Assembly: GCF_004339015.1 (NCBI RefSeq)
Contig: NZ_SMFQ01000002.1
Span: 186,001 to 250,000, forward strand
DNA length: 64,000 nucleotides
Source of the DNA: Cocleimonas flava
GTDB lineage: Bacteria > Pseudomonadota > Gammaproteobacteria > Thiotrichales > Thiotrichaceae
Direction of reading: 5' to 3'
In this document: positions 8,252 to 60,397 of the stretch, in pieces
How positions within the stretch are numbered: the stretch's first letter is position 1
Layout of the letters: each line of letters opens with the position of its first letter
The notes under the pieces: model-generated
The model's input: the letters and a program-made list of their open reading frames with translations, nothing else
What the model was told of the DNA's origin: nothing
Databases searched by the model: none
Position numbers and translations under genes: made by a program

Positions 8252-9658
<1,407 letters not shown>

Positions 9659-9681
9659 CAGATTCTGTTAATGTGTCTTTA

Positions 9682-9711
9682 AAAAATACCGCTTCTAAAG
9701 CGGTATTTTTT
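9682..9711 (+). terminator. Intrinsic terminator after norB
   Basis: An inverted repeat of AATACCGCTT and AAGCGGTATT around a 3-base loop, flanked by an A-run and followed by a T-run. It should limit readthrough from norCB. Confidence 0.88.
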
Positions 9712-9766
9712 TAGTCACGAACTCTGTCCAATTAAACGATCAAAATACTTAAAAGGAAAATGAGCG

Positions 9767-10144
9767 ATGATGAAATCTGAAACATCCAAAAACAATGAGC
9801 AACAGCTCAAAAATGCATCGAATGCTGCCCTCGCCTCTTTGTTAAATTTAACGATTTTACCCGTCATTAGTTTTATCGCGTTGTTGTTTATTTATAAGAA
9901 AACACAACCCGGAAACATTGATCATTATCATGCAGTTCTTGGCATAAAAATAAACATTACAGCAGCGCTGGCATTATTTTTAGTCAGCACATTGATGATA
10001 GTGCTTGGTGGTTTTCATTCGCCCTGGACGTGGGTGTATGTAATCACTTATTTCACCATTGTACATACGATATTTATCGTTTTTGCGATCTGGGCATTAG
10101 TACGATCATGGTCTGGAGACAAATTAAGGTCTAAACACAATTAG
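9767..10144 (+). CDS. Small membrane protein of the nor cluster
   Basis: Product not recognised. It has 125 residues with a short charged N terminus and about three transmembrane segments (SLLNLTILPVISFIALLFIY, then ITAALALFLVSTLMIVL, then a third around TYFTIVHTIFIVFAIWAL). It contains a HYHAVLG turn between the first two helices. A similar layout occurs in the later gene at 11985 (hydrophilic N terminus, a His-containing loop, four or so helices), so the two may be distant relatives of one family; this is by eye only. It lies between the norB terminator and norE and is followed by a C-tract element. Confidence 0.6.
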   Translation: MMKSETSKNNEQQLKNASNAALASLLNLTILPVISFIALLFIYKKTQPGNIDHYHAVLGIKINITAALALFLVSTLMIVLGGFHSPWTWVYVITYFTIVHTIFIVFAIWALVRSWSGDKLRSKHN

Positions 10145-10150
10145 TTAATA

Positions 10151-10188
10151 CTAAAAGCCACCCCCCACCTTTGGGGCACTTTTTTTAT
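10151..10188 (+). repeat. C-tract element copy 5
   Basis: AAAGCCACCCCCCACCTTTG, then GGGCACTTTTTTTA, 6 bp after the stop of the small membrane protein with the T-run distal. Here the C-tract can pair partly with the GGGG. Confidence 0.75.
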
Positions 10189-10210
10189 TAGGCGAATCGT
10201 TATTCATCAC

Positions 10211-10224
10211 TTGATGATCATCAA
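10211..10224 (+). promoter_or_regulatory. Dnr/Fnr box before norE
   Basis: Perfect TTGATgatcATCAA. At -41.5 the predicted transcript starts near 10259, 23 bases before the GTG of norE. Confidence 0.8.
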
Positions 10225-10281
10225 GGCACTTGCCGCTAATCATCATTACAGTTAAGTCATTAAAATTAGAATAGAAATACT

Positions 10282-10866
10282 GTGAATACTGCAATTATCG
10301 AACAAGAACCAAAGCTACTTCCGGGCGATTTAGCCATCTGGTTTTTTATATTTATGGAACTGCTGGTTTTCGGCATTGCTTTTATTAGTTATGCCGTAGT
10401 TCGTGTACAAAATGAGGATATGTTTAATCAATTCCAGTTAACGCTGAATACCGAATTAGGCGCGATTAACACTATTGTATTGATAACTTCCAGCTACTTT
10501 GTCGTACGTGCTGTGCATACGATTAAAAATCACGGTGATTATATTGGCTGTTCACACTGGCTATATGCCGCAATAGCAGGCGGTGGTGTATTTCTCGTTT
10601 TAAAATCATTCGAATACTACGATAAGTTTTCAGCAGGCATTAGCCTCAGCACCAATACGTTTTACATGTTTTATCTATCGCTAACGATGTTCCACTTTTT
10701 GCACGTCATCCTCGGCATGATTATCTTGCTGGCAATTGCGATAAAAGCACAACGCGGTGGCTATAGCGCAAGCAATCACATCGGTGTTGAATCCGGTGCT
10801 TCCTATTGGCACATGGTGGATTTGGTCTGGATTATTTTATTCCCCCTTGTCTATGTAATGCGCTAG
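10282..10866 (+). CDS. norE: NorE-like cytochrome c oxidase subunit III family protein
   Basis: A 194-residue membrane protein with five helices of the haem-copper oxidase subunit III fold, seen in WFFIFMELLVFGIAFISYAVV near the start and in the histidine-bearing HFLHVILGMI and YWHMVDLVWIILFPLVYVM at the end. NorE is an accessory protein of NO reductase operons that raises activity; it is not part of the catalytic core. It starts at GTG 10282 without an obvious ribosome site. It has its own perfect Dnr box and is followed after 13 bp by norF-like. Confidence 0.88.
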   Translation: MNTAIIEQEPKLLPGDLAIWFFIFMELLVFGIAFISYAVVRVQNEDMFNQFQLTLNTELGAINTIVLITSSYFVVRAVHTIKNHGDYIGCSHWLYAAIAGGGVFLVLKSFEYYDKFSAGISLSTNTFYMFYLSLTMFHFLHVILGMIILLAIAIKAQRGGYSASNHIGVESGASYWHMVDLVWIILFPLVYVMR

Positions 10867-10879
10867 TGAGCAATCGATT

Positions 10880-11140
10880 ATGAGAAGTTATTTCAACATT
10901 CACACCATCTGGATTGCATTGATATTACTCACACTTTCCACTTACGCCATGGGAGCACTTGGTTTTAGCGGGCTTCCTATTGTGATTGTGCTGTTACTCA
11001 CTGCTGCAATTAAAGGGGTATTGATCATCAGTGAATTTATGGAATTGCGTGGCGTTTCTTTGTTATGGCGAGTCATTATGTATGGCTGGCTATGGACCGT
11101 AATTATTGTGATCGCGATTACATACGCTATCACTATTTAG
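10880..11140 (+). CDS. norF: NorF-like cytochrome c oxidase subunit IV family protein
   Basis: An 86-residue protein made almost wholly of three transmembrane helices (IWIALILLTLSTYAMGALG, then IVIVLLLTAAIKGVLIISEFM, then a C-terminal helix). The KGVLIISEFMELRG segment is characteristic of the prokaryotic oxidase subunit IV / NorF family. It directly follows norE, as in other nor clusters, and is presumed to help assembly or stability of NO reductase. Confidence 0.78.
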   Translation: MRSYFNIHTIWIALILLTLSTYAMGALGFSGLPIVIVLLLTAAIKGVLIISEFMELRGVSLLWRVIMYGWLWTVIIVIAITYAITI

Positions 11141-11175
11141 CTTAAATATTTATCAACTCAAACAGGCACCATTCA

Positions 11176-11979
11176 ATGAGTAATATCCCTTTTTATCAAA
11201 GCCAGAACAATGAAGTTGAATTGTTTGGACACGCTTTCAACAACCAGCTCCCACTATTGATCAAGGGACCAACTGGCTGTGGTAAAACGCGTTTTATTCA
11301 ACACATGGCAGCCAAATTAAACCGCCCACTTTATACCGTTGCCTGTCATGATGACCTTACAGCAGCAGACCTTGTTGGTAGACATTTAATTGGTGATGGC
11401 GAAACCTATTGGCAAGATGGCCCACTGACTAAAGCAGTGCGTGAAGGTGCTATTTGTTATCTGGATGAAGTGGTTGAAGCGCGTAAAGATACGACTGTTG
11501 TGCTTCACCCACTGACTGATGATCGTCGCATTTTACCTATCGAACGTACCGGTGAAGTATTGACTGCATCACCAGAATTTATGTTGGTTGTTTCTTATAA
11601 CCCTGGTTACCAAAATCTGCTAAAAGGGATGAAACCTTCAACACGCCAGCGCTTTATCTCCATGCGGTTTGATTACCCGGATATTGAAACCGAAACCACT
11701 ATCGTCCAGCAAGAAGCAGCGATTGATAAAGATACTGCCATCCAGTTGATCGAATTGGCGCACGCTTTGCGTGTATTGAAAGATCATGATCTGGAAGAGT
11801 CTGCATCTACCCGTTTATTGGTTTATGCGGCTACCTTAATAAAGTCCGGATTTGACCCCATCGATGCTTGCCGCGCTGCAATTATTGAGCCTTTGAGTGA
11901 TGATGAAGAAACGGTTGAAGCGTTGATGGAAGTAGTCAGAGCTAAAATTGTGCCGACGAAAAAGGACGCATCAGTTTAA
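11176..11979 (+). CDS. norQ: NorQ, MoxR-type AAA+ ATPase
   Basis: A 267-residue cytoplasmic ATPase of the MoxR/CbbQ/NorQ group. Walker A is GPTGCGKT, Walker B ICYLDEV, sensor-like VVSYNPGY, and arginine finger candidates lie in STRQRF. NorQ works with the VWA protein NorD to insert the non-haem iron into NorB. norD follows 780 bp on, after two small genes, an unusual interruption of the normal norQ-norD pair. Confidence 0.93.
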   Translation: MSNIPFYQSQNNEVELFGHAFNNQLPLLIKGPTGCGKTRFIQHMAAKLNRPLYTVACHDDLTAADLVGRHLIGDGETYWQDGPLTKAVREGAICYLDEVVEARKDTTVVLHPLTDDRRILPIERTGEVLTASPEFMLVVSYNPGYQNLLKGMKPSTRQRFISMRFDYPDIETETTIVQQEAAIDKDTAIQLIELAHALRVLKDHDLEESASTRLLVYAATLIKSGFDPIDACRAAIIEPLSDDEETVEALMEVVRAKIVPTKKDASV

Positions 11980-11984
11980 ACGCT

Positions 11985-12416
11985 ATGAAGTCACCAAACA
12001 CCAAGGTTGCTAGCGAATTTATCGCAAAAGAACCTAGACAAGCCGAAGATCATGCGGGCACTATTGCTGAAGCATTCTTCATTGCGAATCTGCTGTTTGT
12101 GGGTATTTTTTATTTTCTGCTTTGGGGCTTATATTTTATGGCCTACAAGAATGCATCTGCCGTAAGTAAACATCACCTTAAACAAACGTTAATCGCGAGC
12201 AGCGTGAGTACATCTATCGCAATATTACTCAATATTATTATTCTGCTAACGACAGGATATGCTTCAGCGACTGCGCTTATTTTAGCGGAAGTGTATCTGA
12301 TGGTCATTGTTCCTGCTTTTTTGATTGCAGGTATTCTGGGTTTTACCAAAGCGGTTCAGGGATTGGACTTTACTTTCCCTTTAATTGGTCGTTTTGCTGC
12401 GAGTGCACAAACCTAA
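11985..12416 (+). CDS. Membrane protein between norQ and norD
   Basis: Product not recognised. It has 143 residues: a hydrophilic N terminus of about 25 residues, then roughly four transmembrane helices (AFFIANLLFVGIFYFLLWG, and a middle pair around ASSVSTSIAILLNIIILL), with SKHHLKQTL between helices. The pattern recalls small DUF4870-type membrane proteins. The gap to norQ is 5 bp, so it is certainly in the same transcript. A link to NO reductase assembly is inferred only from position. Confidence 0.6.
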   Translation: MKSPNTKVASEFIAKEPRQAEDHAGTIAEAFFIANLLFVGIFYFLLWGLYFMAYKNASAVSKHHLKQTLIASSVSTSIAILLNIIILLTTGYASATALILAEVYLMVIVPAFLIAGILGFTKAVQGLDFTFPLIGRFAASAQT

Positions 12417-12460
12417 TGAATAAGCTTGTCACACATTATTCTAAAAAAACGGCCCCACGA

Positions 12461-12543
12461 AGCATAAATTCTATTTACGTTTTAAAACAACAAAAACGTA
12501 ATATCATTCATAAGTGGGGGGGTGCCTTAGCTTACTTAGAGGT
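12461..12543 (-). repeat. C-tract element copy 6, extended form
   Basis: Contains AAGTGGGGGGGTGCCTTAG at about 12511-12530, preceded by a hairpin with arms ACGTTTT (from 12477) and AAAACGT (to 12499). The whole stretch from GCATAAATTC to CTTAGAGG matches the layout and much of the sequence of copy 2 at 1372. It lies between two plus-strand genes with the C-tract on the minus strand, so it is not in terminator orientation for the nor operon. Confidence 0.68.
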
Positions 12544-12552
12544 TGATATAAC

Positions 12553-12759
12553 ATGAGAGAGCTAAGCTGCGCCCATTGTGGCAAAACCCTATCTGCTGAT
12601 GATAAATCCTGTCCTCATTGCGGTATGCCGTTAGCCCCCAATCAGAGAAAGACGCCACAAGGTAAATTCATACTCTGGTTTATCGCCATCGTGATTTTCT
12701 GTGCGCTAATGATTTACCTTCTGCCCTTTTTGGGCTCTACAAGATTTCCGGGGCGATAA
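12553..12759 (+). CDS. Small zinc-ribbon membrane protein
   Basis: A 68-residue protein: an N-terminal double CxxC zinc ribbon (CAHC and CPHC, residues 6-24), a basic linker, then one transmembrane helix (FILWFIAIVIFCALMIYLL). The ribbon should face the cytoplasm. Such tiny ribbon-plus-helix proteins are common but of unknown role. It lies 3 bp before norD and was probably inserted into, or recruited by, the nor operon. ATG 12553 follows GAGG at 12539-12542. Confidence 0.72.
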   Translation: MRELSCAHCGKTLSADDKSCPHCGMPLAPNQRKTPQGKFILWFIAIVIFCALMIYLLPFLGSTRFPGR

Positions 12760-12762
12760 CTT

Positions 12763-14619
12763 ATGTTAGAGGAATTTGTTGGCGAAACCTGGCACAAGTT
12801 TATTACAAAACGTGCGGATAAAAGCTATCCGGAAGCGGTTGTGCATCTGGATGAGGTACGACGCACTGCTGGCATTTTCTTTCGTGCGCTTGGTGGCGAA
12901 GGTGGCTTACGCGTTGAAAACGCAACGGATTCTGAAGTTCATGCAAAACGCACTATTTTGCAACGCATAGCAGGTATTGCCGATAAAACCCAATACGCCT
13001 GGAGAGACGAAGAAACACTTCGCTTACCCGATAGCATCGCCCTATTTCCTACTCGTCAGCTGAATCTGGATTTATACCTCTGGTTAACCGCCTTATCGGT
13101 GATTGATAGTAATAATGCTACCGCTAAAGACTGGATTAGTCGTAATCAATACTGCACCTTAAGCACACTAGCCATCTGGCCGGGCTTGAAGCCACGTTAT
13201 GACAATCTACTGCAGGCGCATTTACAGCAACGACCAGACCCTAAACACTTAAGCAAAGGCGAAGCGAACCAGGAAACTGCAATCCAGAATGCTTTAATGG
13301 ATTCTGACAAAGCAGTTCAGCTTCAGTATGCCAAAAGACCACCTCAACCTGTGCCATTGTGGTTACACCCATCACCGCCTGAAGAAGAATTTTCTAACAG
13401 CATACCTCCTCAAGACCCTGATTTTGACGAGGCTGCTCAATCCAAAGAACAGAAAAAAGATCAGGAAAAACAACAAAAGCGCAAACAGGGAAAACGTACT
13501 GAAATGCCGGATGGTAATTCAGGTTTGATGAGTTTTCGCCTTGAAAGTCTCTGGAGTTGGGCCGAATACAGTAAAGTAGATCGCACCAGTACCGAAGATG
13601 ACGATGACAATGCCATGCGAACCGCAGAAGACATGGATAGCATTACCGTTGCTCAAGACAGTAAGACCACATCAAGCAAGATTAAACTGGATCTCGATTT
13701 ACCTTCCAGCAACTATGATGACATCGTATTAGGTGAAGGGCTTCCTATCGATGAATGGGATTATAAACAGCAGCGCATGCAAAAAGATCACTGCCGTTTA
13801 CAAACCATGGTGTCACGCGATGCAATCCCTACTGAATTGCCCGAGAGGCTTAGGGCTCAGACACATAAAGTGCGTCGCCAATTTGAGGTTTTAAAACCAC
13901 AACGCGTATGGAAGAATCGCCAAAACGATGGCACTGAATTAGATCTGGAAAACTACGTTAATTACCTCACTGATCGCAAGCATGGTCATGTGCAAAGTGA
14001 CACACCGGTTTATCGAGAGTTGAGAAACCAGAACCGCGACCTTTCCTGTTTATTGCTGGCTGATCTTTCACTCTCAACCGATGCACATATTAATAATGAT
14101 TCACGCGTGATCGATGTGATTCGTGACTCTTTGTATTTATTCTCTGAAGCATTGCATGCAACGGGCGATCGTTTTGCCTTACATGGCTTTTCTTCACGAA
14201 ACCGTAATCATGTTCGTTTCTACAATATCAAAGATTTCGATGAAAATTACAATGATGAAGTCCGTGGACATATCGATGCTGTAAGGCCGGGTTATTACAC
14301 GCGCATGGGTGCGGCAATTCGACATGCAACCGAGCAATTATCCAAACAGGCAACCAGCCAAAAACTCTTATTAATTCTCACCGATGGCAAGCCAAATGAT
14401 CTTGATAAGTATGAAGGTCGTTATGGAATTGAAGATACGCGCATGGCAGTGCTAGAAGCGGAAAAATTAGGCGTGAGACCGTTCTGCGTCACCATTGACG
14501 AACAAGCTGAAGATTACCTGCCTTATCTATTTGGTAGTCGCTCTTTTGTGCTTATTCGAAATGCCGCGGAGTTACCGAAGAAGCTGCCACTATTATACTT
14601 ACGACTAACTAAAAACTAG
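12763..14619 (+). CDS. norD: NorD, VWA-domain NO reductase activation protein
   Basis: A 618-residue cytoplasmic protein. The N-terminal 220 residues are a NorD-specific helical region; residues about 225-250 are charged and low-complexity (KEQKKDQEKQQKRKQGKR). The C-terminal third is a von Willebrand A domain with MIDAS motif DLSLST, a later GYYTRMG and ILTDGKPND. With NorQ it drives iron insertion in NorB. It ends 16 bases before copy 7 of the C-tract element and is convergent with the AAA gene at 14651. Confidence 0.93.
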   Translation: MLEEFVGETWHKFITKRADKSYPEAVVHLDEVRRTAGIFFRALGGEGGLRVENATDSEVHAKRTILQRIAGIADKTQYAWRDEETLRLPDSIALFPTRQLNLDLYLWLTALSVIDSNNATAKDWISRNQYCTLSTLAIWPGLKPRYDNLLQAHLQQRPDPKHLSKGEANQETAIQNALMDSDKAVQLQYAKRPPQPVPLWLHPSPPEEEFSNSIPPQDPDFDEAAQSKEQKKDQEKQQKRKQGKRTEMPDGNSGLMSFRLESLWSWAEYSKVDRTSTEDDDDNAMRTAEDMDSITVAQDSKTTSSKIKLDLDLPSSNYDDIVLGEGLPIDEWDYKQQRMQKDHCRLQTMVSRDAIPTELPERLRAQTHKVRRQFEVLKPQRVWKNRQNDGTELDLENYVNYLTDRKHGHVQSDTPVYRELRNQNRDLSCLLLADLSLSTDAHINNDSRVIDVIRDSLYLFSEALHATGDRFALHGFSSRNRNHVRFYNIKDFDENYNDEVRGHIDAVRPGYYTRMGAAIRHATEQLSKQATSQKLLLILTDGKPNDLDKYEGRYGIEDTRMAVLEAEKLGVRPFCVTIDEQAEDYLPYLFGSRSFVLIRNAAELPKKLPLLYLRLTKN

Positions 14620-14650: not shown

Positions 14651-15601
14651 CTATAAATTGATCGAATACTTTTTTAATCGGTATAGCAGTGTATCTCTAG
14701 TTAAACCTAATAAGCGCGCCGCCTGGGATTTATTACCGCCGCTATTACGCAATGCCTGCTGCATCAAATCGACTTCTAAAACCTCTAACTCAACGCCAGA
14801 TTCGGGTAGTGTAAAAATCGATTTGGAACTTAACTCGGTATAGTGTCTAATTTCCGCGGGAAGATTCGTCACTTCAATGTTTTTGTTTTGGAATAACAAA
14901 AACATGCGTTCACAGAAATTGCTTAACTCCTGAATATTACCGGGCCAGTTATATTGCTTTAATTTGTGGATGGCTGGTGTACTAAATTCTGGAGCAGGTC
15001 TTCGATGTTGTTTTACCAATTGCTTGAAAAAATGGTCTGCTAATAACATGACATCATCTTCTCTTTCAGACAGCTTAGGTAGCTCAACTGGGATAGTACA
15101 TAATCTGTAATACAAATCTGCGTTGAATTTACCTTCGGCGACTAAATCTCTTAAGTTCTCAGAACTACTAGCTACTATTCTTACATCTAATTTTTGTTTC
15201 TTGAATGACTTGAATTGTTGAGTTGAAAGTACTTGTGCATTATCGATCAAATACAGTAATTGAGCTTGAGCCTCAAGATTCAGGTGAGTGACTTCTTGCA
15301 GATAGAGTGTTCCTGTATGAGCCTGAAATACAAATCCATTTTGTTCTGGTGTTAATTTATTAGCATAAGAAAACAATAACGATTCAGACGTTTCAGCAAA
15401 AAATGCTGCACAATTCACACTTATCAAATGATTACGTTTGCTTGCTTCATGTAAATATCGAGCTATCGATTCTTTTCCGGAGCCAGTTTCACCCAAAACC
15501 AAAACCGGCACATCGAGTTTTGCAATTAAATCAGTAACTCTAAGCGCTTCTTGAAACTTGGTTGAGTTACCTATTAATTTAATTTTTTCTCGATTCGTCA
15601 T
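14651..15601 (-). CDS. Degenerate NtrC-family AAA+ regulator lacking GAFTGA
   Basis: A 316-residue protein with the AAA core of sigma-54 activators and a C-terminal Fis-type helix-turn-helix (NKSQAARLLGLTRDTLLYRLKK), no N-terminal receiver. Walker A is intact (GETGSGKES), and so is the sensor 2 region (YNWPGNIQELSN). The GAFTGA loop that contacts sigma-54 is missing: the expected place reads YANKLTPEQNGF. Walker B reads LYLQEV, with Gln where Asp is expected. It probably binds DNA but cannot remodel sigma-54 holoenzyme; ATP hydrolysis is also doubtful. It is last in the exbB-exbD-tonB-SafE operon and may regulate copper uptake through the 18353 palindrome, which is an inference. Confidence 0.8.
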   Translation of the reverse strand: MTNREKIKLIGNSTKFQEALRVTDLIAKLDVPVLVLGETGSGKESIARYLHEASKRNHLISVNCAAFFAETSESLLFSYANKLTPEQNGFVFQAHTGTLYLQEVTHLNLEAQAQLLYLIDNAQVLSTQQFKSFKKQKLDVRIVASSSENLRDLVAEGKFNADLYYRLCTIPVELPKLSEREDDVMLLADHFFKQLVKQHRRPAPEFSTPAIHKLKQYNWPGNIQELSNFCERMFLLFQNKNIEVTNLPAEIRHYTELSSKSIFTLPESGVELEVLEVDLMQQALRNSGGNKSQAARLLGLTRDTLLYRLKKYSINL

Positions 15602-15616
15602 AATGAAATGTGTTTT

Positions 15617-16318
15617 CTACAATAATTGGAAATGTAACTGGTGATGTAGATGTGGATAAACCACCAGTATCAAACTTATAATACCCATTATTATCAATAG
15701 CAAACCTGATATAGATTGGATTTTTTTAGAATTCCTGAACTGAGTAATCTTTCCTGTCAAAAATCCAGTACTCATCATCGGTATCAGTGTGCCAATCCCA
15801 AAAACCATCATAAATAATGCGGAGTTAATTGCACCATCGCTTGCTGGCGACATCAATAACATATAGTACACTAATCCGCAGGGCAACCAGCCCCATACGA
15901 GACCGAACATAGTTGCCTTCCATATTTTATCTACCGGTAATAACTTCTGCCCTAAAGGTTGTAATAAAGACCAAATGGGAACACCGATTTTTTCAATACG
16001 AGAAAACTGCGGAAACCAGCCTGCAATATAGAAACCCATAGCAATTATCATGAAAGAGGCGATTAAACGAAGTAGGCCAATGCCATGCTCTGGCATAATG
16101 AAATCTTTAAAAACCTGGCCTAATAAACCAACCAATAATCCGGCAATCATGTAACTGATGATTCGCCCAAGATTATATGCAAATGTGTATTGCGCGAGTT
16201 TCAACTGGTTTTGTCTTATTTCAGGGCTTAAGCTCATTGTCATTGCGCCAACCAGCCCACCGCACATGCCGATACAGTGAATAGTGCTCAGTAAACCGAC
16301 AACAAAAGCAATTAGCAT
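15617..16318 (-). CDS. SafE/TauE-like integral membrane protein (COG2836 type)
   Basis: A 233-residue membrane protein with six or seven helices. The signature HCIGMCGGLVGA near the N terminus and the GWLPCGLVYYML segment place it in the cysteine-containing TauE/SafE-like branch that often sits beside copper and cbb3 oxidase genes, and is thought to move or handle metal or thiol compounds. It lies 3 bp after tonB and 15 bp before the AAA gene. In this setting, transport of copper across the inner membrane is a reasonable but unproven role. Confidence 0.8.
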   Translation of the reverse strand: MLIAFVVGLLSTIHCIGMCGGLVGAMTMSLSPEIRQNQLKLAQYTFAYNLGRIISYMIAGLLVGLLGQVFKDFIMPEHGIGLLRLIASFMIIAMGFYIAGWFPQFSRIEKIGVPIWSLLQPLGQKLLPVDKIWKATMFGLVWGWLPCGLVYYMLLMSPASDGAINSALFMMVFGIGTLIPMMSTGFLTGKITQFRNSKKIQSISGLLLIIMGIISLILVVYPHLHHQLHFQLL

Positions 16319-16321
16319 AAA

Positions 16322-17421
<1,100 letters not shown>

Positions 17422-17425
<4 letters not shown>

Positions 17426-17808
17426 GACCCTTCTTTGGTAATAATTTTGAGTTTTTCGAGATTATTCTTTTTCAATAAATCGATGACATCAACAAAATTT
17501 TTAAAAGCGACTTCTTGATCAACCCGTAAGCGAATCGGGGTATCCTTGGCTATATTTTCTAGCTTAGTTGAAAGAATTTCTCGTGTTGCAGGTTCACCAT
17601 CAATAAAAAGTTCCTTATTTGCATTTATCGAAATTTCGATAGTTGTTACTTCTGCTTGTTCTGATATCGGCTTGGCACTTTGTGCTTCAGGTAGATTGAT
17701 ATCAATCACTCCTTGAGAAATAAAGGTAGCCGTTGTTAGCACAATCGCGAGTAACACCAACATGATATCAATAAATGGAATCATATTGATTTGGTCAAAT
17801 CGTTTCAT
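17422..17808 (-). CDS. exbD: ExbD biopolymer transport protein
   Basis: A 128-residue protein with one N-terminal transmembrane helix (MIPFIDIMLVLLAIVLTTATF) carrying the essential Asp (in FIDIMLV), and a periplasmic domain ending in KIITKEGS. Part of the ExbB-ExbD proton channel that powers TonB. It overlaps exbB and tonB by 4 bp each, showing translational coupling. Confidence 0.93.
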
Positions 17809-18275
17809 GAGTTGTTTTGCGCTTCTTTATTCGTAGCATTAGTAGTATTTTGTGTGTCTCTAAACTCACGCCATCTTGCCGTTACCACATCCACTTTTCT
17901 AAGCAGAGCGTTGTAAAATATGATTGCTGGAATAGCGACTAACAAACCACCCGCGGTCGCTTTTAGTGCCAATGCCAGTCCAGTCATAATATTTTGTACA
18001 TCTATCTTTCCACCTTGCCCCATATCGTAGAAAGTTATGATAATTCCAAGTACTGTCCCTAATAGGCCAACATACGGCGCATTCGCTGCAATCGTAGAAA
18101 TAACAGTAAGATTCTGGGTTAATGACACATTCAAATTATCTTCATGGGTAAAACCCTCTACTTTTACACGCGCGAAGTAGAAATATCTTTCTATGACGAA
18201 CCACAGCATAAAAAAACTCATCAGGCCCAGAATGCCAAAGACCATATAGTCTAAATTATCTCTCAAAAAATCCAT
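17805..18275 (-). CDS. exbB: ExbB/TolQ-type proton channel protein
   Basis: A 156-residue protein with three helices: MVFGILGLMSFFMLWFVIE, then YVGLLGTVLGIIITFYDMG, then the one in GGLLVAIPAIIFYNALL. These hold the ExbB/TolQ signature TVLGIIITFYDMG and the polar helix with the conserved Thr/Pro. It is shorter than typical ExbB (about 220-240), lacking much of the cytoplasmic loop, as seen in many ExbB2-type proteins. First gene of the exbB-exbD-tonB-SafE-AAA operon. Confidence 0.9.
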   Translation of the reverse strand: MDFLRDNLDYMVFGILGLMSFFMLWFVIERYFYFARVKVEGFTHEDNLNVSLTQNLTVISTIAANAPYVGLLGTVLGIIITFYDMGQGGKIDVQNIMTGLALALKATAGGLLVAIPAIIFYNALLRKVDVVTARWREFRDTQNTTNATNKEAQNNS

Positions 18276-18352
18276 CGTTATATTTCTTCACTCATGTAAA
18301 ACGCAAACAGAATCTAACATTTATATTCTTTTGCAAATAATAATTACGTCCA

Positions 18353-18374
18353 AAGTGTGTGATATCACACACTT
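18353..18374. promoter_or_regulatory. Perfect 22-bp palindrome in the exbB-oprC divergent gap
   Basis: Half-site AAGTGTGTGAT followed directly by its exact reverse complement. It lies 78 bp from the exbB start and 102 bp from the chosen receptor start, an ideal place for an operator shared by both operons. TGTGA and TCACA are present but separated by only two bases, so it is not a Crp box. Confidence 0.75.
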
Positions 18375-18475
18375 CTGTGTCAATTAACCTATTCGAAATT
18401 TTATCCGTATCACCCTCAAATACTAATTCATATACTTGGGCGGATACATTATATGACTTATTGACGGGTATAAAC

Positions 18476-20599
18476 ATGGGAAATAAAAACCTCTTATTTT
18501 TGCTTTCACTTTCATTGGCGGTATCTTCAAATGTGCTTGCAGAAGAACTAGATAATATTGTTATTGAAGATGTATTAACTATTAATCCGAATTCAGCCGA
18601 TGCTAATGATATTAATCGAGTTAGCCCTACCAGTTCTGACGGAGGAGATTTTTTAACACAGGTGAATGGCGTTTCCATGAGCCGTTTTGGTGGCAGGGGT
18701 TTAGAGCCGATCGTACGCGGACAGAGTCAAACTCGTCTAAATATTTTATTAGATGGGGCATATATCCATGGCGGCTGCCCTAATCGCATGGACCCACCAG
18801 CAAGTTGGGCTGCATTGGAAACTTACGAGAATGTTACGGTACTTAAAGGCGTTCAAACACTTGCATACGGCAGCGGTGGAAGTGGTGGAACCGTTTTGTT
18901 TGAACGAGATACTAGAGATCTGGCTGAGGATAAAGGCGTCCATGGCCGTGTAAGTGCAACTTTTACTGATAATGCGATTTCTCATGACCTACTTGCAGAT
19001 GTTGTCGCGTCGGGTGAAAAAGGTTATCTACGTGGTATTGGAGAAATCAAAAAAGCGCAAAACTATGAAGATGGGGATGGTGTCGAAGTTCGATCATCCT
19101 ATGATCACAAACAGGCTGGCATCATCGCTGGTTTCACACCCACAGAAGACAGGCTTTTCGAGTTTAGTTTCGAAAGAAACTCATTTTCTGATGCACTTTA
19201 CCCCGGTGCAGGAATGGATAGTCCAACCGAAGATGCCGATATCATTCGACTACGTTATGAAGATAAACCAGCCACAGATAAAATAGATAGTATTAAAGCA
19301 GAAGCTTATTTAAGCGATGTAGATCATCTGATGGATAATTATAGCTTGCGCACACCACCAACTTATATGGCTTGGCACCCAAAAGCGGGGCAGGATATGT
19401 TACGCGCAACACCGACAACGTCTAAAACGACCGGCGGAAGAATAATTCTTAATTCAACTGTTGGCGCAAGCAAATGGGAATATGGAGTTGATCTTCAGCG
19501 TAACACCAGAAATGCATCACTTAATAATATGGATAGCGGAACTGCAGCACCCATCACATTGATGTGGCCCGATATTACTATTCAACAGTTAGGACTGTTT
19601 GCCGAAAGTACTCGATCACTCTCTAAAAAAGATACTTTAAAATACGGATTAAGAGTTGATCAAGTCGATGTCTCAGCGGGTAAAGCAAACGATATGATCG
19701 GTAGTATGCCAATGGGTGGTCACTCTGCAAACCAGTCTTATGCCGAATACTATGGCAGTAATGCGGATGATAAAGATGAAACTAATATTGGTGGCTTGCT
19801 GCGTTATGACAAAGACATGGGTAATGGAATATCGTTATTTACTGGCCTAAGCCGAAGTGTAAGAACAGCTGATAGTACCGAAAGAGGAATCAACAAATGG
19901 TCAGCTGTGCCCGGAACTGCGCCTGTTGAAGCGCAAGAAACTATTTTAGCTGGGCGCTGGATCGGAAACCCGGATATCAAACCTGAAAAACATCACCAAT
20001 TTGATATTGGTTTAAGTAAAACAACTGATACATTAGATTTCAGTGCCGTTGCATTTTATGACAAGGTTGATGATTACATCTTGCGTGATACTGCTCGCGG
20101 GCAAGATGGAATTCTCAAATCTGACGGTGCGGATATTTATCGGAATGTTGATGCTGAGCTGTATGGCCTGGAGTTTGAAAGCAAAATTAAGCTCTCAAAC
20201 CGATTAGATTTAAGTGGCAGTATTGCATTTGTTCGAGCCACAAATACCACTGATGATAATCGGCCCATTGCTCAAACGCCGCCTATTAACGGAAAGCTAC
20301 AACTGGATTACACCGGTGCTAAATGGGGCGCTGGAGCGAGAGTCAATTTTGCGTCTCGTCAAGATAGAATTGATGTCCTTAGCAAGCAGGAAGTTGGAGA
20401 AACGGCAGGTTACGGCACTTTAGATCTTTATGGTAATTACAAATTAAATAAGACCGTTAGCCTACGCGCTGGAATAGATAATGTGATGGATAAGACCTAT
20501 GCTGAACACGCAAGCCGATCTAATATTATGGATATTAATTCAATCAAAGTTAATGAGCCTGGACGAACTGCCTGGCTTAAAATAACCGCTGAGTTCTAA
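18476..20599 (+). CDS. TonB-dependent copper receptor, OprC/NosA type
   Basis: A 707-residue outer-membrane beta-barrel. Signal peptide at residues 1-24 (LLFLLSLSLAVSSNVLA). The plug domain has GGRGLEPIVRGQSQTRLNI and HGGCPNRMDPPASWA. The CPNRM is the CxxxM copper motif described for OprC. The barrel ends in TAWLKITAEF with the terminal Phe needed for outer-membrane insertion. Methionine/histidine pairs (PMGGHSAN) add to the copper character. The frame opens at 18359, but ATG 18476 is chosen because the signal peptide starts there and the 18353 palindrome then stays non-coding. A copper supply for NirK and its chaperones is the likely purpose. Divergent from exbB-exbD-tonB. Confidence 0.9.
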   Translation: MGNKNLLFLLSLSLAVSSNVLAEELDNIVIEDVLTINPNSADANDINRVSPTSSDGGDFLTQVNGVSMSRFGGRGLEPIVRGQSQTRLNILLDGAYIHGGCPNRMDPPASWAALETYENVTVLKGVQTLAYGSGGSGGTVLFERDTRDLAEDKGVHGRVSATFTDNAISHDLLADVVASGEKGYLRGIGEIKKAQNYEDGDGVEVRSSYDHKQAGIIAGFTPTEDRLFEFSFERNSFSDALYPGAGMDSPTEDADIIRLRYEDKPATDKIDSIKAEAYLSDVDHLMDNYSLRTPPTYMAWHPKAGQDMLRATPTTSKTTGGRIILNSTVGASKWEYGVDLQRNTRNASLNNMDSGTAAPITLMWPDITIQQLGLFAESTRSLSKKDTLKYGLRVDQVDVSAGKANDMIGSMPMGGHSANQSYAEYYGSNADDKDETNIGGLLRYDKDMGNGISLFTGLSRSVRTADSTERGINKWSAVPGTAPVEAQETILAGRWIGNPDIKPEKHHQFDIGLSKTTDTLDFSAVAFYDKVDDYILRDTARGQDGILKSDGADIYRNVDAELYGLEFESKIKLSNRLDLSGSIAFVRATNTTDDNRPIAQTPPINGKLQLDYTGAKWGAGARVNFASRQDRIDVLSKQEVGETAGYGTLDLYGNYKLNKTVSLRAGIDNVMDKTYAEHASRSNIMDINSIKVNEPGRTAWLKITAEF

Positions 20600-20677
20600 G
20601 TAGTAATAATAGTTGTAGTTATAAAGTAATAAGTAAAAATTTCATCGAATGTACTTACAGTTAACATTCTTGTTAAT

Positions 20678-20712
20678 TGTAAGTACACCCCCCTACTTTA
20701 AGGCACTTTTTT
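20678..20712 (+). repeat. C-tract element copy 8
   Basis: GTAAGTACACCCCCCTACTT, then TAAGGCACTTTTTTA, 79 bp after the receptor stop, T-run distal. AAGTA and TACTT can pair around an eight-base CACCCCCC loop. Confidence 0.8.
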
Positions 20713-20745
20713 AAAGCGTTTTTTAATCCGCTTAATTTAGTAACT

Positions 20746-21222
20746 TTACCTAACAGTATAAAAACGAAACGGCGCCATCATTACGCCTTTTTCCGTTTCT
20801 AACTTTACTTGGGCTTCCCATTCCATTCGCGTGTTAACACAAATAGGAATAGTAAATTTACCGCTATAATTATTGGGCTTGTCCAGTTTTAACTCACTGC
20901 GGTTAAAACCCATATCCATATTCAAACCGACAAAATCCACTTTGACTGATGAAGCTGTGATTCCTTTGGTTTCTACATGTAACGATAGCGGCGTTAAAAT
21001 TGGTATGTCTTTGGGGTTTAATGAAAAAGTGACAGATTCGCCATTAGGAAACACATTGATACAAGAGTCTTGTCTAAGATCACAGGGTTCTTGCAACGAT
21101 GCCTCGGCGATGTAATTTGAAACCAGAAATTTTTTATATAAATAGCTCGCAGCAATACCGCCAGCAAAAACAAGCAAAGCAACAATCGTCAGGAAGTTCG
21201 AGGATTTTTTGGTGTCGGACAT
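20746..21222 (-). CDS. Unknown membrane-anchored periplasmic protein after nuoN
   Basis: Product not recognised. It has 158 residues: a short cytoplasmic start, one transmembrane helix (FLTIVALLVFAGGIAASYLY), then a beta-rich periplasmic domain with the cysteine pair CDLRQDSC, a third Cys in IPICVN, and a conserved-looking MDMGFNRSEL. The Met/Cys content and the neighbouring copper genes hint at metal binding, but this is speculative. It starts 41 bp after the nuoN stop on the same strand, so it may be read from the nuo transcript. Confidence 0.6.
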   Translation of the reverse strand: MSDTKKSSNFLTIVALLVFAGGIAASYLYKKFLVSNYIAEASLQEPCDLRQDSCINVFPNGESVTFSLNPKDIPILTPLSLHVETKGITASSVKVDFVGLNMDMGFNRSELKLDKPNNYSGKFTIPICVNTRMEWEAQVKLETEKGVMMAPFRFYTVR

Positions 21223-21263
21223 GATTCAGCTAAATTAAACGATGAAAAGACTAAGACCGACGA

Positions 21264-22805
21264 TTATAAACTGGCTTCAACCGCGAGAACACATAAAGAC
21301 ATCAATGCGCCGGGTAAAATCCCTAGTGCTAATACTGATAGGCCATTCACGCTTAATAGTAATTTAAAATCGAAACCAGATTTAGCAGGTACGAGTAATT
21401 CTTCATCACCAACAAATTCATCGGGTTGATCAAAGTACATGAGTTTTATCGCACGCAAATAATAGTAAGCACCAATGACAGACATCACCACTGCAAACAC
21501 GGCGAGCCAAACCACTTCAGCACCGACAACTGCTTTTAATACAGATAGCTTTGCGTAAAAACCCACGGTTGGCGGAACGCCTGCCATGGAGAATAAGAAC
21601 AGCATCATCATAAAGGCATACCAGGGATGGCGTGAGCTCAAGCCTTGTAAATCGATCAATCGATCCGCTTCATAACCATCTCTACTGAGTAGGATAATGA
21701 TTCCGAATGCACCCATCGCGACTATTGAGTAAGTGATGATATAGAACATTGATGATGCATAACCTACTTCGGTTCCAGCAAGAATACCGAGAAGCACAAA
21801 ACCCATGTGCGAAATTGTAGAATACGCCAGCATGCGTTTGATATTAGTTTGCGCGATGGCAACAACGTTACCAATGAATAAAGATAATGCTGCAAGCAAT
21901 GATAGTATTTGCTGCCAGCCCAGTAACATTTCATCAAGCCCTTCCACGAGCAAACGGAACATCATCGCAAAAGCAGCAATTTTTGGTGCTGTTCCCAGGA
22001 ACAAGGTTACCGCTGTCGGTGAGCCATCATAAACATCGGGCACCCACATGTGAAAGGGTACGACACCGAGTTTAAAGCCAAGCCCTACAAGAACAAAAGA
22101 CAAGCCCAACAACAAGCCCATATTTGTCATCACATTATGGCCCATCATGAAACTATCAATATGATCAAGATGCAGGCTACCGGTAACACCGTAAATAATC
22201 GACATACCGTAGAGCAACATGCCGGATGCAATCGCCCCCAGTACAAAATATTTCATCCCTGCTTCGGACGCTCTTCCGTCATTTCTTCTGAATGCCACCA
22301 TCGCGTACATGGCTAACGAAAGAAGCTCTAATCCTAAATAGATGACTAACATGGTTTTCGCAGAAACCATGATCATCATTCCAAGAACCGCAAACATTCC
22401 CAGGGTAAAGTATTCGCCCTTGAACATTTGTCGTGTTTTTAAATAAGGGCGGGAATAAACGAAAACGCCAACAGTAATCAGCAGGATCGAAACTTTCAGT
22501 ACTTGCGACATAGGATCGAGCACAAACATCTCGCTAAACGTCGTTAAACTCGCTTTACCTGTTGTTTGCAATGCTTCTGCCATACTCACATCATTGATGC
22601 CACTAATGACTAGATAGGCAGTAATCAACAGCACGGTTTGTGATAGTAGGTATGTGATGTAACGATTTGAGTCTTTTAAAAACAAATCGACCAACAATAC
22701 CAAACAGGTTCCTGCCAATAGGAATATTTCAGGTATTGCCGGAGCGAAATCTGGAATAGCGAATTGCATCGGAATTAATGTAGCCGTTGTAAATGACATA
22801 AACAT
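21264..22805 (-). CDS. nuoN: NADH-quinone oxidoreductase subunit N
   Basis: Proton-pumping membrane subunit of complex I, 513 residues, about 14 helices of the Mrp antiporter fold. The conserved Glu is in LGLELLSLAMYAMV, and Lys residues lie in AGMKYFVLGAI and NIKRMLAYSTISHMGF. The frame opens at 22862, but ATG 22805 (or 22799) is preferred, one base after the nuoM stop. Last of the 14 nuo genes. Confidence 0.95.
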   Translation of the reverse strand: MFMSFTTATLIPMQFAIPDFAPAIPEIFLLAGTCLVLLVDLFLKDSNRYITYLLSQTVLLITAYLVISGINDVSMAEALQTTGKASLTTFSEMFVLDPMSQVLKVSILLITVGVFVYSRPYLKTRQMFKGEYFTLGMFAVLGMMIMVSAKTMLVIYLGLELLSLAMYAMVAFRRNDGRASEAGMKYFVLGAIASGMLLYGMSIIYGVTGSLHLDHIDSFMMGHNVMTNMGLLLGLSFVLVGLGFKLGVVPFHMWVPDVYDGSPTAVTLFLGTAPKIAAFAMMFRLLVEGLDEMLLGWQQILSLLAALSLFIGNVVAIAQTNIKRMLAYSTISHMGFVLLGILAGTEVGYASSMFYIITYSIVAMGAFGIIILLSRDGYEADRLIDLQGLSSRHPWYAFMMMLFLFSMAGVPPTVGFYAKLSVLKAVVGAEVVWLAVFAVVMSVIGAYYYLRAIKLMYFDQPDEFVGDEELLVPAKSGFDFKLLLSVNGLSVLALGILPGALMSLCVLAVEASL

Positions 22806-22806
22806 T

Positions 22807-24318
22807 TTAATTCCCCAACTTACTGGTTGTGGCTTGCTCAACAACATGAGCCAGTGAATCATTCATCACATGTACCAAAGGCTCTGGCCAAAGACCGAGA
22901 AGCAATACGAAAAAGGCTAAAGCAGCAAGTATGACGGTTTCACGCTTATTGATATCCGTTAATTCAGCAACATTACTGTTGGCGACGGCACCGAAAATTA
23001 CGCGTTTGACCAACCATAAGGTATAGGCAGCGCCAATAATTAAGGTAGTCGCTGCAAGAAATGCTATCCAGAAATTCGCTTTGAAACTGGTGAGAATAAC
23101 CATGAACTCACCGACAAAACCCGAGGTGCCCGGTAGGCCTGTATTCGCCATCGCGAATAATACAAAGAATCCAGCAAACCATGGCATTCTATTCGAAACA
23201 CCACCATAAGCGGTGATATCACGCGTATGCATCCGATCATATAAAACGCCGATACATAGGAACATCGCACCTGAAATAAAGCCATGTGACATCATCTGAA
23301 CCATACCGCCCTGCAAGCCTAATAGTGTTCCTTCAGCGCTGCCTGTTTTTGTCACAATTGGGAATAGCACAAAGAAACCTAAAGTCACAAAACCCATATG
23401 CGCTATCGATGAATACGCCACAAGCTTCTTCATATCGTTTTGTACCAAAGCGATAAAGCCAATGTAGACAATCGCGGTTAATGACATAAAGATCACCAGC
23501 CACGCAAGCTCACTTGAAGCATCGGGAACCATAGGCAAGGAGAATCGTATAAAGCCATACCCGCCTATTTTAAGCATCACTGCGGCTAGTATCACCGAAC
23601 CACCCGTTGGTGCCTGTACGTGAGCATCTGGCAACCAGGTATGTACTGGCCACATCGGTACTTTGACACCAAAGGCGATCAAGAAAGACAAGAAGATTAG
23701 AATCTGTGGCGTCATGCCCAATTTCACACTATGGAAATCTGCAATTGCAAAACTATCCGCTTGTGAATACATGTAAACCAGACTGATCAGCATAAATACT
23801 GAGCCGAAAAAGGTATAGAGGAAGAACTTGATAGTCGCATAAATACGATTATCGCCACCCCAGATTCCAATCACGATAAACATAGGAATCAGCATCGCTT
23901 CGAAGAACACATAAAACAAGATAGAGTCTTGAGCGGCAAACACGCCATTGATGATGCCTTCCATGATTAAGAAGGCAGCCATATATTGCGCAGGCTTATG
24001 TTTAATCACTTCCCATCCTGCAATAACAATCAAAACAGTAATGAAGGTATTGAGCAGTATTAGTGGCATTGAGATGCCATCAACGCCTAAGTGATAATTT
24101 ATTTTGAAGGCTTCAATCCACGGCGCTAATTCAACAAACTGCATTTGATGACCGACGGGATTAAAGTCAGTCCAGAGTGGAATACTGAGCAAAAAGGTTA
24201 AGGCACTGAATACCAATGCTATAGGTCGAGGCGCAAACTTGTCGCCAGTAAACAGCAGTATCAACCCACCGATGATCGGCAGCCAAATTAAAATACTGAG
24301 CAAATTACCCTCAAACAT
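22807..24318 (-). CDS. nuoM: NADH-quinone oxidoreductase subunit M
   Basis: Proton-pumping subunit of complex I, 503 residues, antiporter-like. Key residues: Glu in FYVFFEAMLIPMF, Lys in NDMKKLVAYSSIAHMGFV and in AVMLKIGGYGF. ATG 24318 (MFEGNLLS) is chosen; it overlaps the nuoL stop by 8 bp. An upstream ATG at 24330 is possible but adds only MERI. Confidence 0.96.
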   Translation of the reverse strand: MFEGNLLSILIWLPIIGGLILLFTGDKFAPRPIALVFSALTFLLSIPLWTDFNPVGHQMQFVELAPWIEAFKINYHLGVDGISMPLILLNTFITVLIVIAGWEVIKHKPAQYMAAFLIMEGIINGVFAAQDSILFYVFFEAMLIPMFIVIGIWGGDNRIYATIKFFLYTFFGSVFMLISLVYMYSQADSFAIADFHSVKLGMTPQILIFLSFLIAFGVKVPMWPVHTWLPDAHVQAPTGGSVILAAVMLKIGGYGFIRFSLPMVPDASSELAWLVIFMSLTAIVYIGFIALVQNDMKKLVAYSSIAHMGFVTLGFFVLFPIVTKTGSAEGTLLGLQGGMVQMMSHGFISGAMFLCIGVLYDRMHTRDITAYGGVSNRMPWFAGFFVLFAMANTGLPGTSGFVGEFMVILTSFKANFWIAFLAATTLIIGAAYTLWLVKRVIFGAVANSNVAELTDINKRETVILAALAFFVLLLGLWPEPLVHVMNDSLAHVVEQATTSKLGN

Positions 24319-57965: not shown

Positions 57966-58889
57966 ATGTGCACAGTATGCGGATGCGGTAGCGATGAAGT
58001 TAAGGTTGAAGGACATTCTCACAATCATAGCCACGATCATGATCACAGTCACAATAATCATAGCCATGAGCACTCTCATGCCAATGGTCACACGCATAGT
58101 CATGAACATCACAATCATGAACACAACCAAGACACCCACTATGGCTTAGGTCCAGCTCATGCTCACGTCCCAGGACTTAGCCAATCGAGAATGATAGAAA
58201 TCGAACAAAATATTCTCGGAAAAAATCATGAATACGCAAATGAAAATCGACGCTTTTTTACCGAACAAGGCGTACTCAGTTTAAATCTAGTATCAAGCCC
58301 AGGCTCAGGCAAAACAACACTACTAACTCAAACGATAACTGACCTAAAAGATGATTTATCACTATCCGTTATCGAAGGGGATCAACAAACCGCAAATGAT
58401 GCCGAACGCATCCGTGCGACAGGCGTTCCCGCATTACAAATCAACACAGGCAAAGGCTGCCATCTTGATGCGCACATGGTCGGACACGCAATGGAAAAAA
58501 TGACACCAGAAGAAGGTGGAGTCTTATTTATTGAAAATGTTGGAAATCTGGTTTGCCCTGCTGCATTTGATTTAGGTGAAGCACATAAAGTGGCCATACT
58601 TTCGGTAACAGAAGGTGAGGATAAACCACTAAAATACCCTGATATGTTTAATGCTGCAGATATCATGCTTTTGAATAAAATTGATCTATTACCTTACCTA
58701 CAATTTGATGTAGACAAATGTATCGAATATGCTCGACGAGTTAACCCAAGCATTCAAGTATTACAAGTTTCCGCCACATCAGGCGAAGGCATGGAAAACT
58801 GGTATCATTGGATTAAATCAACACGTCAAATGAAACTCATTGGACACCCTAGTTTTAATACGACTACAGCAACCGAAAACCATTTATGA
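57966..58889 (+). CDS. hypB: Hydrogenase nickel GTPase HypB
   Basis: A 307-residue SIMIBI GTPase. N-terminal CTVCGCG binds Ni tightly; residues about 15-60 are a long His-rich stretch ([18 protein letters not shown]) for Ni storage. G1 is [11 protein letters not shown], with NKIDLLP as the base-recognition motif. It overlaps hupR by 4 bp. Confidence 0.96.
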
Positions 58890-60397
58890 GTGATACCTCT
58901 GCCAATTTATTACCCAGTATTCTAATCGTTGATGATGAGGCCCGCTCTATAGAAACGTTAGAGCGCATCCTTGATGAATACTTTGATGTTCACACCGCTA
59001 GCAATGCAAAAGAAGCGCTCGACATTCTCGAACAAGAGTGGATACAAGTAGTGCTATGCGACCAGAGAATGCCTGATGTTACAGGCGTAGAATTATGCGG
59101 ACAGATTCGTGAAACCTGGCCTGAAGTTATACGCATGATTATCTCAGGCTACACTGACTCAGAAGATATTATAAACGCGATCAACGAAGGCGGAATTTAC
59201 CAATACATTAGCAAACCCTGGCACCCGGAAGACGTAATTTTAAAACTTAAAAATGCCGTGGAGTTATCCGAACTCCATCGAAAAAATGAAAGACTAGCTA
59301 TCGAATTAAAGCTACACCCTAAAACACTAAAAGAAGCGATAGAAGTACAACGAAAAGCCCTGCAATCACATTATAGCTGGGAAGGTATCGTAAGAAGCCC
59401 CGACAGCATCATGAACGCGACCTGCGACACAGTAAAGCAAGTCTCTCCTTTTGATGTCAGCGTGTTAATAACCGGCGAATCAGGAACTGGCAAGGAGCTT
59501 TGCTCTCGTGCTTTGCATTACAACAGCCTGCGCCAGAATGAGCCATTCGTTGCAGAAAATTGCGGCGCACTACCTGACGAATTATTAGAAAGTGAATTAT
59601 TCGGCCACAAAAAAGGAGCTTTTACAGGTGCAGTTGAAGATCGGATAGGTCTCTTCGAATCAGCGAATGGCGGCACTATTTTTCTCGATGAAATCGGTGA
59701 CATCTCCCCCGCTTTTCAACTGAAACTCTTACGAGTCTTGCAAGAAAAAGAAGTTCGCCCGCTGGGTAGCAACAAACGCCGCCCGGTAGATGTTCGCATT
59801 GTTGCAGCTACCAATAAAAACCTTGAAGATGAAGTACGAGAAGGTCGATTTCGCCAAGACCTATATTATCGCCTTGCGACATTTACCATCCAATTGCCTC
59901 CTCTGCGTGACAGACTCGAAGACATCCCTTACCTCACCACTTTCCTACTTGATGAAATAATGAATGAATTAGGAAAACGTGTAGACGGCATCACAACCGA
60001 GACCATGGATTGCTTTCAAAAATACCAATGGCCAGGCAATGTTCGCGAACTACAAAACGAACTAAAACGGATGCTGGTATTGACCCAAACAAACAAACTA
60101 GAAGCCAACACAATATCCCCACATATTTTACGCGCTACTCCCGATCATATGCGAAAAGACATGTCTCTTGTGACAGGTAACACAAACGGCACCTTAAAAG
60201 ACCGGATCGAACAGCTAGAGTCGCGCGTTCTAAAAGAAACCCTAGTAAGGCACAGCTGGAACAAAACACGTGCAGCAGAAGAACTCGGACTATCCAGAGT
60301 CGGCCTGCGCAGCAAACTAGAACGCTACGGTTTAGAGCAAGCTGATCAGGATGTGGTACAGTTACCAAGCAAAAAGAAAATAAGTAATAGCAGTTAA
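58886..60397 (+). CDS. hupR: HupR/HoxA-type NtrC-family response regulator
   Basis: A 503-residue regulator: N-terminal receiver domain with [10 protein letters not shown] (phospho-Asp), AAA domain with GESGTGKEL, intact KGAFTGA and [11 protein letters not shown], and a C-terminal Fis-type HTH ([20 protein letters not shown]). Intact GAFTGA means it should act with sigma-54, matching the hupS promoter (HoxA-like). In many such systems the non-phosphorylated form is active. A C-tract element (60402) separates it from hupT. Confidence 0.93.

Follow-up and report, generated by a model that had tools for sequence, protein, structure and literature searches.

What can a regulator of bEBP architecture do once its GAFTGA loop is gone, and why should it close a TonB operon next to a copper receptor? 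The question is raised by a 316-residue protein encoded at 14651..15601 on the minus strand of the window, by which we mean the whole 64,000-nucleotide stretch of the Cocleimonas flava genome analyzed here.

A bEBP fold without the sigma-54 loop

The reading frame, taken from the ORF list and characterized with Pfam and an ortholog alignment, encodes an AAA+ module followed by a Fis-type HTH: Sigma54_activat (PF00158) covers residues 9-172 (4e-37, 127.9 bits vs a cut-off of 20.2), AAA_lid_14 is also matched, and HTH_8 lies at the C-terminus (55.5 bits vs a cut-off of 22). Pfam finds no domain N-terminal to the AAA+ module and no receiver. Walker A is intact (GETGSGKE). At the aligned positions that we take to be the GAFTGA loop, Walker B and the arginine fingers, the LFGHxKGAFTGA...G of the orthologs reads LFSYA----NKLTPEQNG, with four residues deleted and the remainder replaced; Walker B reads GTLYLQE where the orthologs have GTLFLDE, i.e., a change from Asp to Gln; and the arginine-finger segment FRxDLFYRL becomes FNADLYYRL, the first finger position having changed from Arg to Asn. 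Judged by the features of a bEBP, the protein thus retains PF00158 with its Walker A and the Fis-type HTH, and lacks the GAFTGA loop, the full Walker B DE and arginine-finger set and a -24/-12 promoter at its presumed target; NCBIfam bEBP models score it far under their cut-offs.

Pfam and the alignment therefore confirm what the original prediction had read in this frame, namely its position, the kept Walker A and Fis-type HTH, the replaced loop, the exchange of the Walker B Asp for Gln and the missing receiver. The structure prediction that it had proposed as a check (pLDDT 79.9, pTM 0.67, on a seven-row alignment), together with a fold search, returned a bEBP fold and nothing beyond it. A sequencing error is unlikely, since an ortholog of 69% identity in the second Cocleimonas genome (G007), which stands in the same gene order, has a loop of equal length and the same YLQ.

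The host genome (4.49 Mb) keeps rpoN, with one match, and encodes 11 bEBP-like proteins, the regulator counted. Two of these, L010 and L011, also have no GAFTGA and an altered Walker B (LSDIG and LKSID, respectively), so that, with the window regulator, three of the 11 are atypical. The window contains one more NtrC-type gene (58886-60394, plus strand), whose product has a receiver-like N-terminus and an intact GAFTGA.

The copper operon and its neighborhood

The regulator is the last of five genes that run head to tail on the minus strand with overlaps or gaps of at most 15 bp: ExbB (17805..18275; TIGR02805, above cut-off), ExbD (17422..17808; TIGR02804, above cut-off), TonB (16322..17425; Pfam and NCBIfam), a SafE-like/DsbD_2 membrane protein (15617..16318; Pfam), which ends 15 bp upstream of the regulator, and the regulator itself. 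Across an intergenic region of 197 bp (18276..18472), a TonB-dependent copper receptor of the OprC/NosA type is transcribed divergently (18473..20599, plus strand; TIGR01778, 504.6 bits vs a cut-off of 472.45); its start is likely the ATG at 18473, before the signal peptide, though the longest ORF begins at 18359. The operon that had been claimed originally stands as to its gene order and to the copper receptor, which lies opposite; the name SafE needs qualifying, because the match is to Pfam DsbD_2.

Beyond oprC, a protein of 158 aa (20746-21222, minus strand) has no Pfam or NCBIfam match and may belong to the copper module, given that a homolog lies upstream of safE and the regulator in L055-L057. 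At 8264-14619, and likewise in the other Cocleimonas genome, the copper operon faces a convergent group of genes: one for a heme-copper-oxidase-like subunit, one that is subunit-III-like, one for an AAA protein of the NorQ/CbbQ type and one with a VWA domain (NorD-like).

A 7.2-kb block that holds exbB and oprC (17108-24275) has 92.6% nucleotide identity to the corresponding Cocleimonas locus L053, as compared with 78.8% for the regulator region, and the exbB-oprC spacer is identical at 224/224 positions in the two Cocleimonas genomes, suggesting that the receptor block was recently exchanged between them. Operator conservation between the window and L053 was considered as a footprint and dropped, as the identical spacer sits in this recently shared block.

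A family of single-domain regulators and its repeated loss of the loop

A profile (A2) made from a 21-row alignment was run on 369 genomes of the class, with the best six candidates per genome scored, and 57 genomes gave a match of at least 338 bits, the next match among those listed being at 317.5. The window regulator reaches 444.6 bits, a score that is not independent because the protein is itself one of the 21 rows; a plain protein search with the regulator recovers the same group. In the taxonomic family to which the window belongs, a copy scoring at least 419 bits is present in 32 of 63 genomes, and the next match scores 304.

We read the surroundings of 79 copies. SafE stands directly upstream of the regulator in 42/79 loci, an OprC-type receptor (at least 100 bits) lies within the fetched stretch in 28/79, one or both of these apply to 57/79 and neither to 22/79, although absence of a neighbor goes partly unseen, as 13 of the 79 stretches are shorter than 8 kb. 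This synteny argues that the place in a copper operon is inherited rather than unusual, as it had been called at first sight; the window regulator shares with the family the SafE and OprC neighbors and the operator described below. Cys230, in the AAA+ lid, is found in 70/79 orthologs and in 0/8 paralogs. Ten genomes of genus g2 in family f1 (G073, G075-G083) stand outside the 79-locus set; the nine copies of these genomes that were read (L076-L078, L080-L085) carry GAFTGA, the G075 copy and a second copy each in G079 and G080 lying outside this count.

The 79 copies divide into 56 with an intact or near form of the loop (GAFTGA, GSFTGA, GAYTGA, GAFSGA), nine with a variant (GAFTDA, GAFIEA, GSFTSA, GAFTSA, GSFTHA) and 14 in which it is lost, in differing ways. 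A tree computed by a quick method, with the loop and Walker-B columns left out, requires six changes to explain the lost state, only three of them forced by strongly supported branches. Intermediates exist, for the neighbor of the window's genus on the tree is a GAFIEA copy (L054) and an adjacent clade mixes GAFTDA copies (L059, L065, L191) with lost ones (L060, L189, L190). The catalytic set of Walker A, Walker B DE and both arginine fingers is complete in 55/56 intact, 8/9 variant and 5/14 lost copies, with Walker A kept in 79/79 and the HTH in all 14 loop-less copies.

Another taxonomic family, f3, has a copy in 51/57 genomes, of which 30 were read together and one more (G424) as L176, with 20 unread. 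All 30 are loop-less, with a single loop length and no GAFTGA; 26/30 retain the Walker-B DE, which argues against a general catalytic decay, and the five usable pairs among 435 give a dN/dS of about 0.03. Between the window and L053, dN is 0.20 and dS 2.2 (saturated). The search for orthologs with the same motif loss, suggested originally, has turned it up in 14 of the 79 loci and in 30/30 f3 copies read. Orthologs with an intact GAFTGA in the same position, which the original prediction would have taken as a sign of a sequencing artefact or recent decay, do exist, but that interpretation of them fails: the occurrence of the loop-less state in both Cocleimonas genomes and in 30/30 f3 copies at a dN/dS of about 0.03 argues against either.

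Assembly error and recent decay as causes of the loss are ruled out by the second genome and by the f3 conservation. Loss of rpoN is also ruled out, as the gene is present in 34 of the 35 genomes tested (among them G173, which has no regulator locus), including all 14 loop-less ones; the one miss is G057, which is 69% complete and has a variant loop.

A predicted palindromic operator shared with loop-bearing relatives

The spacer between exbB and oprC contains a perfect 22-bp palindrome, AAGTGTGTGATATCACACACTT (18353..18374), which is the predicted operator of the regulator by its match to that of loop-bearing relatives; the palindrome at 18353 that had been proposed for a DNA-binding test is thus of the operator type of intact-GAFTGA orthologs. 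Its 16-bp core (18356-18371) is the sole perfect TGTGTGAWWTCACACA in the genome, which has five further sites with two mismatches, the reversed control pattern giving three. In loop-bearing loci, palindromes like AACTGTGTGAAATCACACAGTT lie upstream of -24/-12 sites, and GC-rich loop-bearing loci have GGCA-2-TGCC palindromes instead; GTGA arms with a 2-base gap occur in 7/21 sequences and GGCA arms in 5/21, the shuffle maximum being 4.

Within the 79 loci, TGTGTGAWWTCACACA gives 28 matches of at least 14/16 (0.6 expected) and 17 of at least 15/16 (0.0 in shuffles), a count that is partly circular since the pattern was derived from some of these loci. Co-occurrence in the taxonomic family points the same way: the operator, with at most one mismatch, is found in 26/32 genomes that have the regulator versus 5/31 that do not (p 2e-7), and in 10/16 versus 5/31 outside genus g2 (p 0.0024), the reversed pattern being found in 3/63 genomes. 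Five genomes have an operator-like palindrome and no regulator at threshold, i.e., G031, G016, G021 (perfect), G014 and G032; there the palindrome may serve a regulator that has diverged, or some other protein.

Loop-bearing loci tend to have a pair of operators. When one hand-picked primary site per locus was taken in 31 of the 79 loci, the mean score of a second site 20-22 bp away was, out of 16, 11.6 in intact, 11.2 in variant and 9.0 in lost loci (Mann-Whitney p 0.004, intact plus variant vs lost). The tandem spacing is a tendency only, since the window operator, too, has a second site that scores 12/16 at a distance of 20 bp. The idea that the ancestor regulated its own gene by way of palindromes in the promoter of SafE was considered and rejected, palindromes of 7-8 pairs occurring there in 4/26 intact loci, about the shuffle level (0.12 per locus).

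Loss of the -24/-12 site and a putative sigma-70 layout in f3

Promoters of the sigma-54 type were scored in the region around the receptor start with a -24/-12 matrix that follows what we take to be the consensus and is not fitted to these genomes, at a threshold of 13.4 set after a first look. A -24/-12-like site accompanies an OprC-type receptor in 12/17 intact, 3/5 variant and 0/6 lost loci; the comparison of 15/22 with 0/6 yields a Fisher p of 0.0046, which is not corrected for kinship, the six loop-less receptor loci amounting to about three lineages. In 12 of the 15 cases the site precedes the ORF start by 26-62 bp; the other three (L065, L155, L179) fall inside the longest ORF, whose start is uncertain. 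Loci below the threshold are L144, L146 (with 36 bp upstream only), L148, L174 (12.9) and L187 (12.6) in the intact class and L054 and L143 in the variant class. Base composition by itself does not account for the missing sites, given that the AT-rich variants L065 (GC 0.36) and L191 (GC 0.33) have one.

When the fetched stretches were scanned irrespective of gene names, a site preceded a gene in 20/56 intact, 3/9 variant and 0/14 lost loci, several of these sites being chance-like; the genes behind them include those of MbnP copper-binding lipoproteins (L068, L069, L072; TIGR04052, 264-281 bits vs a cut-off of 140), of a PepSY_TM protein in L070 and of a further TonB receptor in L135. In the window the exbB-oprC spacer has no -24/-12 site, the best scores being 7.3 in the oprC direction, far from the start, and -1.4 in the exbB direction. 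The claim that a sigma-54 activator has here become a different, predicted DNA-binding regulator is supported, in that intact orthologs often adjoin the same genes and have -24/-12-like sites ahead of copper genes, and in that the palindrome matches their operator.

What may replace the sigma-54 promoter is most legible in f3. There the operator matches at 13/16 or better 45-76 bp upstream of safE in 27/31 loci, those under this score being L193 (with almost no upstream sequence), L197, L215 and L221, and no -24/-12 site is found upstream of safE in any of the 31 loci. A TGnTAnnnT motif starts 27 bp downstream of the operator centre in 29/30 loci (L193 dropped), as compared with 1/960 at the other offsets tried, and an upstream TGTGTTTT element is likewise conserved. 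Activators of class II bind about -41.5/-42 upstream of the start. Read as an extended -10, the f3 motif would place the operator at about -42 with no evident -35, which we interpret as a putative class II sigma-70 layout; it counts as one evolutionary event, since the 30 sequences come from one taxonomic family.

A -10 at the f3 distance was not found in the exbB-oprC spacer of the window, and a general promoter scan of the window gave nothing above shuffles. On the exbB side, an extended -10-like TGTTAGATT stands 47 bp from the operator centre as an unsupported match, and L057 has TGnTATCTT at 46 bp from the operator; both may be due to chance, as offsets of 15-70 were all looked through. 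The spacing of TGTTAGATT would suit a class I position.

A probable copper activator uncoupled from sigma-54, and the alternatives

The reading that we find rather likely is that of a copper-acquisition activator that has repeatedly become uncoupled from sigma-54 and would have been kept as a sigma-70-type regulator. Its ancestor would have been an orphan activator that bound GTGTGAWWTCACAC-type operators, often two of them spaced by 20-22 bp, ahead of a -24/-12 promoter, and opened the sigma-54 polymerase by ATP hydrolysis and the GAFTGA loop; its presumed targets were the genes of TonB-dependent copper receptors and, in some genera, of MbnP copper-binding proteins. From the window lineage the loop, two catalytic positions (the Asp of Walker B and one of the arginine fingers) and the receptor's -24/-12 site would then have disappeared, while Walker A, the HTH and the exbB-oprC operator stayed. 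Its regulator most likely still binds the predicted operator, probably in the form of a dimer or small oligomer that is either ATP-bound or gated by copper or redox state, and would act through the sigma-70 polymerase on the divergent exbB operon, its own gene included, and on oprC. Binding to the palindrome, sigma-70 control of exbB and oprC, activation and the copper signal are all steps that we infer from sequence; C230 in the AAA+ lid may serve as a copper or redox ligand or as the sensing residue.

As regards the sign of control, activation is favored by the f3 arrangement, in which the operator lies about -42 relative to a conserved extended -10 and no -35 is evident, although either sign is possible in the window, where this geometry is not found. 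The foremost competitor, which we hold to be unlikely, is a plain repressor that activates nothing and, when copper suffices, blocks sigma-70 promoters at the exbB-oprC operator. A single perfect 22-bp palindrome in a divergent spacer of 197 bp is a classic repressor layout, the loss of catalytic residues would be immaterial to such a protein, and the window has no established promoter geometry of the activator type; however, the f3 arrangement fits class II activation better, and the loop-bearing relatives resemble activators.

The gene could also be a relaxed relic, decaying after its -24/-12 promoter was lost and with no present function. Within the window's genus, loop-less copies do differ in Walker B, the arginine fingers and the loop, and 6/12 members of this genus searched have no ortholog at threshold, though five of those six assemblies are less than 90% complete; yet the frame is open, the HTH and Walker A persist in 14/14 loop-less copies, and the substitution values for the window and L053, the low f3 dN/dS and the loop length common to the 30 f3 copies read make this explanation improbable. 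A dominant-negative subunit that forms mixed rings with other bEBPs and makes no use of an operator of its own would suit the kept AAA+ fold and the 11 bEBP-like proteins of the genome, but with an HTH in 14/14 loop-less copies and a unique perfect operator by its own operon it is hardly credible.

Around the activator uncoupled from sigma-54 a wider proposition can be built, to which we would give an even chance: that one ortholog family switched promoter class several times independently, the loop and the -24/-12 site being lost together and the operator and HTH kept, and that at least one bacterial family rebuilt a class II sigma-70 target with the same operator.

Relation to known systems

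PspF is a single-domain bEBP that consists of AAA+ and HTH only, keeps GAFTGA and drives the psp genes; the window regulator resembles it in domain content and differs in having no GAFTGA, and the NCBIfam PspF model gives it 185.3 against a cut-off of 443.55. TyrR and FleQ have bEBP architecture and can act at sigma-70 promoters or with no sigma-54 loop; the TyrR model scores the window regulator at 143.8 bits vs a cut-off of 576. VpsR of Vibrio cholerae (spelled 'VspR' in that source) appears in the excerpted text of PMC10274813 as a GAFTGA-less bEBP acting at sigma-70 promoters. VpsR, TyrR and FleQ differ from the window regulator in sensory domains and regulons and, as far as tested, are not of the same family.

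A close parallel is the GAFTGA-less NtrC of Rhodobacter capsulatus and Caulobacter, for which the same excerpts report a loop-1 deletion and activity at sigma-70 promoters (PMC10274813). Like the window regulator, those proteins are described there as an NtrC-type AAA+ module plus HTH with the loop-1 deletion; unlike it, they have a receiver, a cognate kinase and nitrogen genes. The window regulator, conversely, has no sensor domain, a copper context and an altered Walker B, and its losses recur within one ortholog family.

On the side of the targets, the portions consulted of PMC12914433 and PMC10422930 describe OprC/NosA and CrtA as TonB-dependent transporters that import copper, some beside exbBD-tonB or PepSY_TM genes, and attribute their regulation to CruR or to copper-responsive expression, with no sigma-54 activator or GAFTGA-less regulator named in those portions; PMC5744179 and PMC11722255 were compared alongside, likewise in part. 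Among the matches listed from titles and abstracts of open-licence literature, neither the family nor a sigma-54 activator of OprC-type receptors is described. An operator and a regulator are proposed here for bacterial copper import, the control of which is poorly known.

GAFTGA-less bEBPs are, in sum, already known, and what looks new is the single-domain, copper-linked family and the joint loss of loop and promoter within it. Intermediate stages of a move from sigma-54 to sigma-70 with the regulon retained are rarely seen; here the relatives display intact, altered (GAFTDA, GAFIEA) and deleted loops, often by the same copper genes, and in several of them both promoter and operator can be read. 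Should promoter class indeed have been switched several times independently, the family would offer a set of natural replicates in which to follow a regulator's departure from sigma-54.
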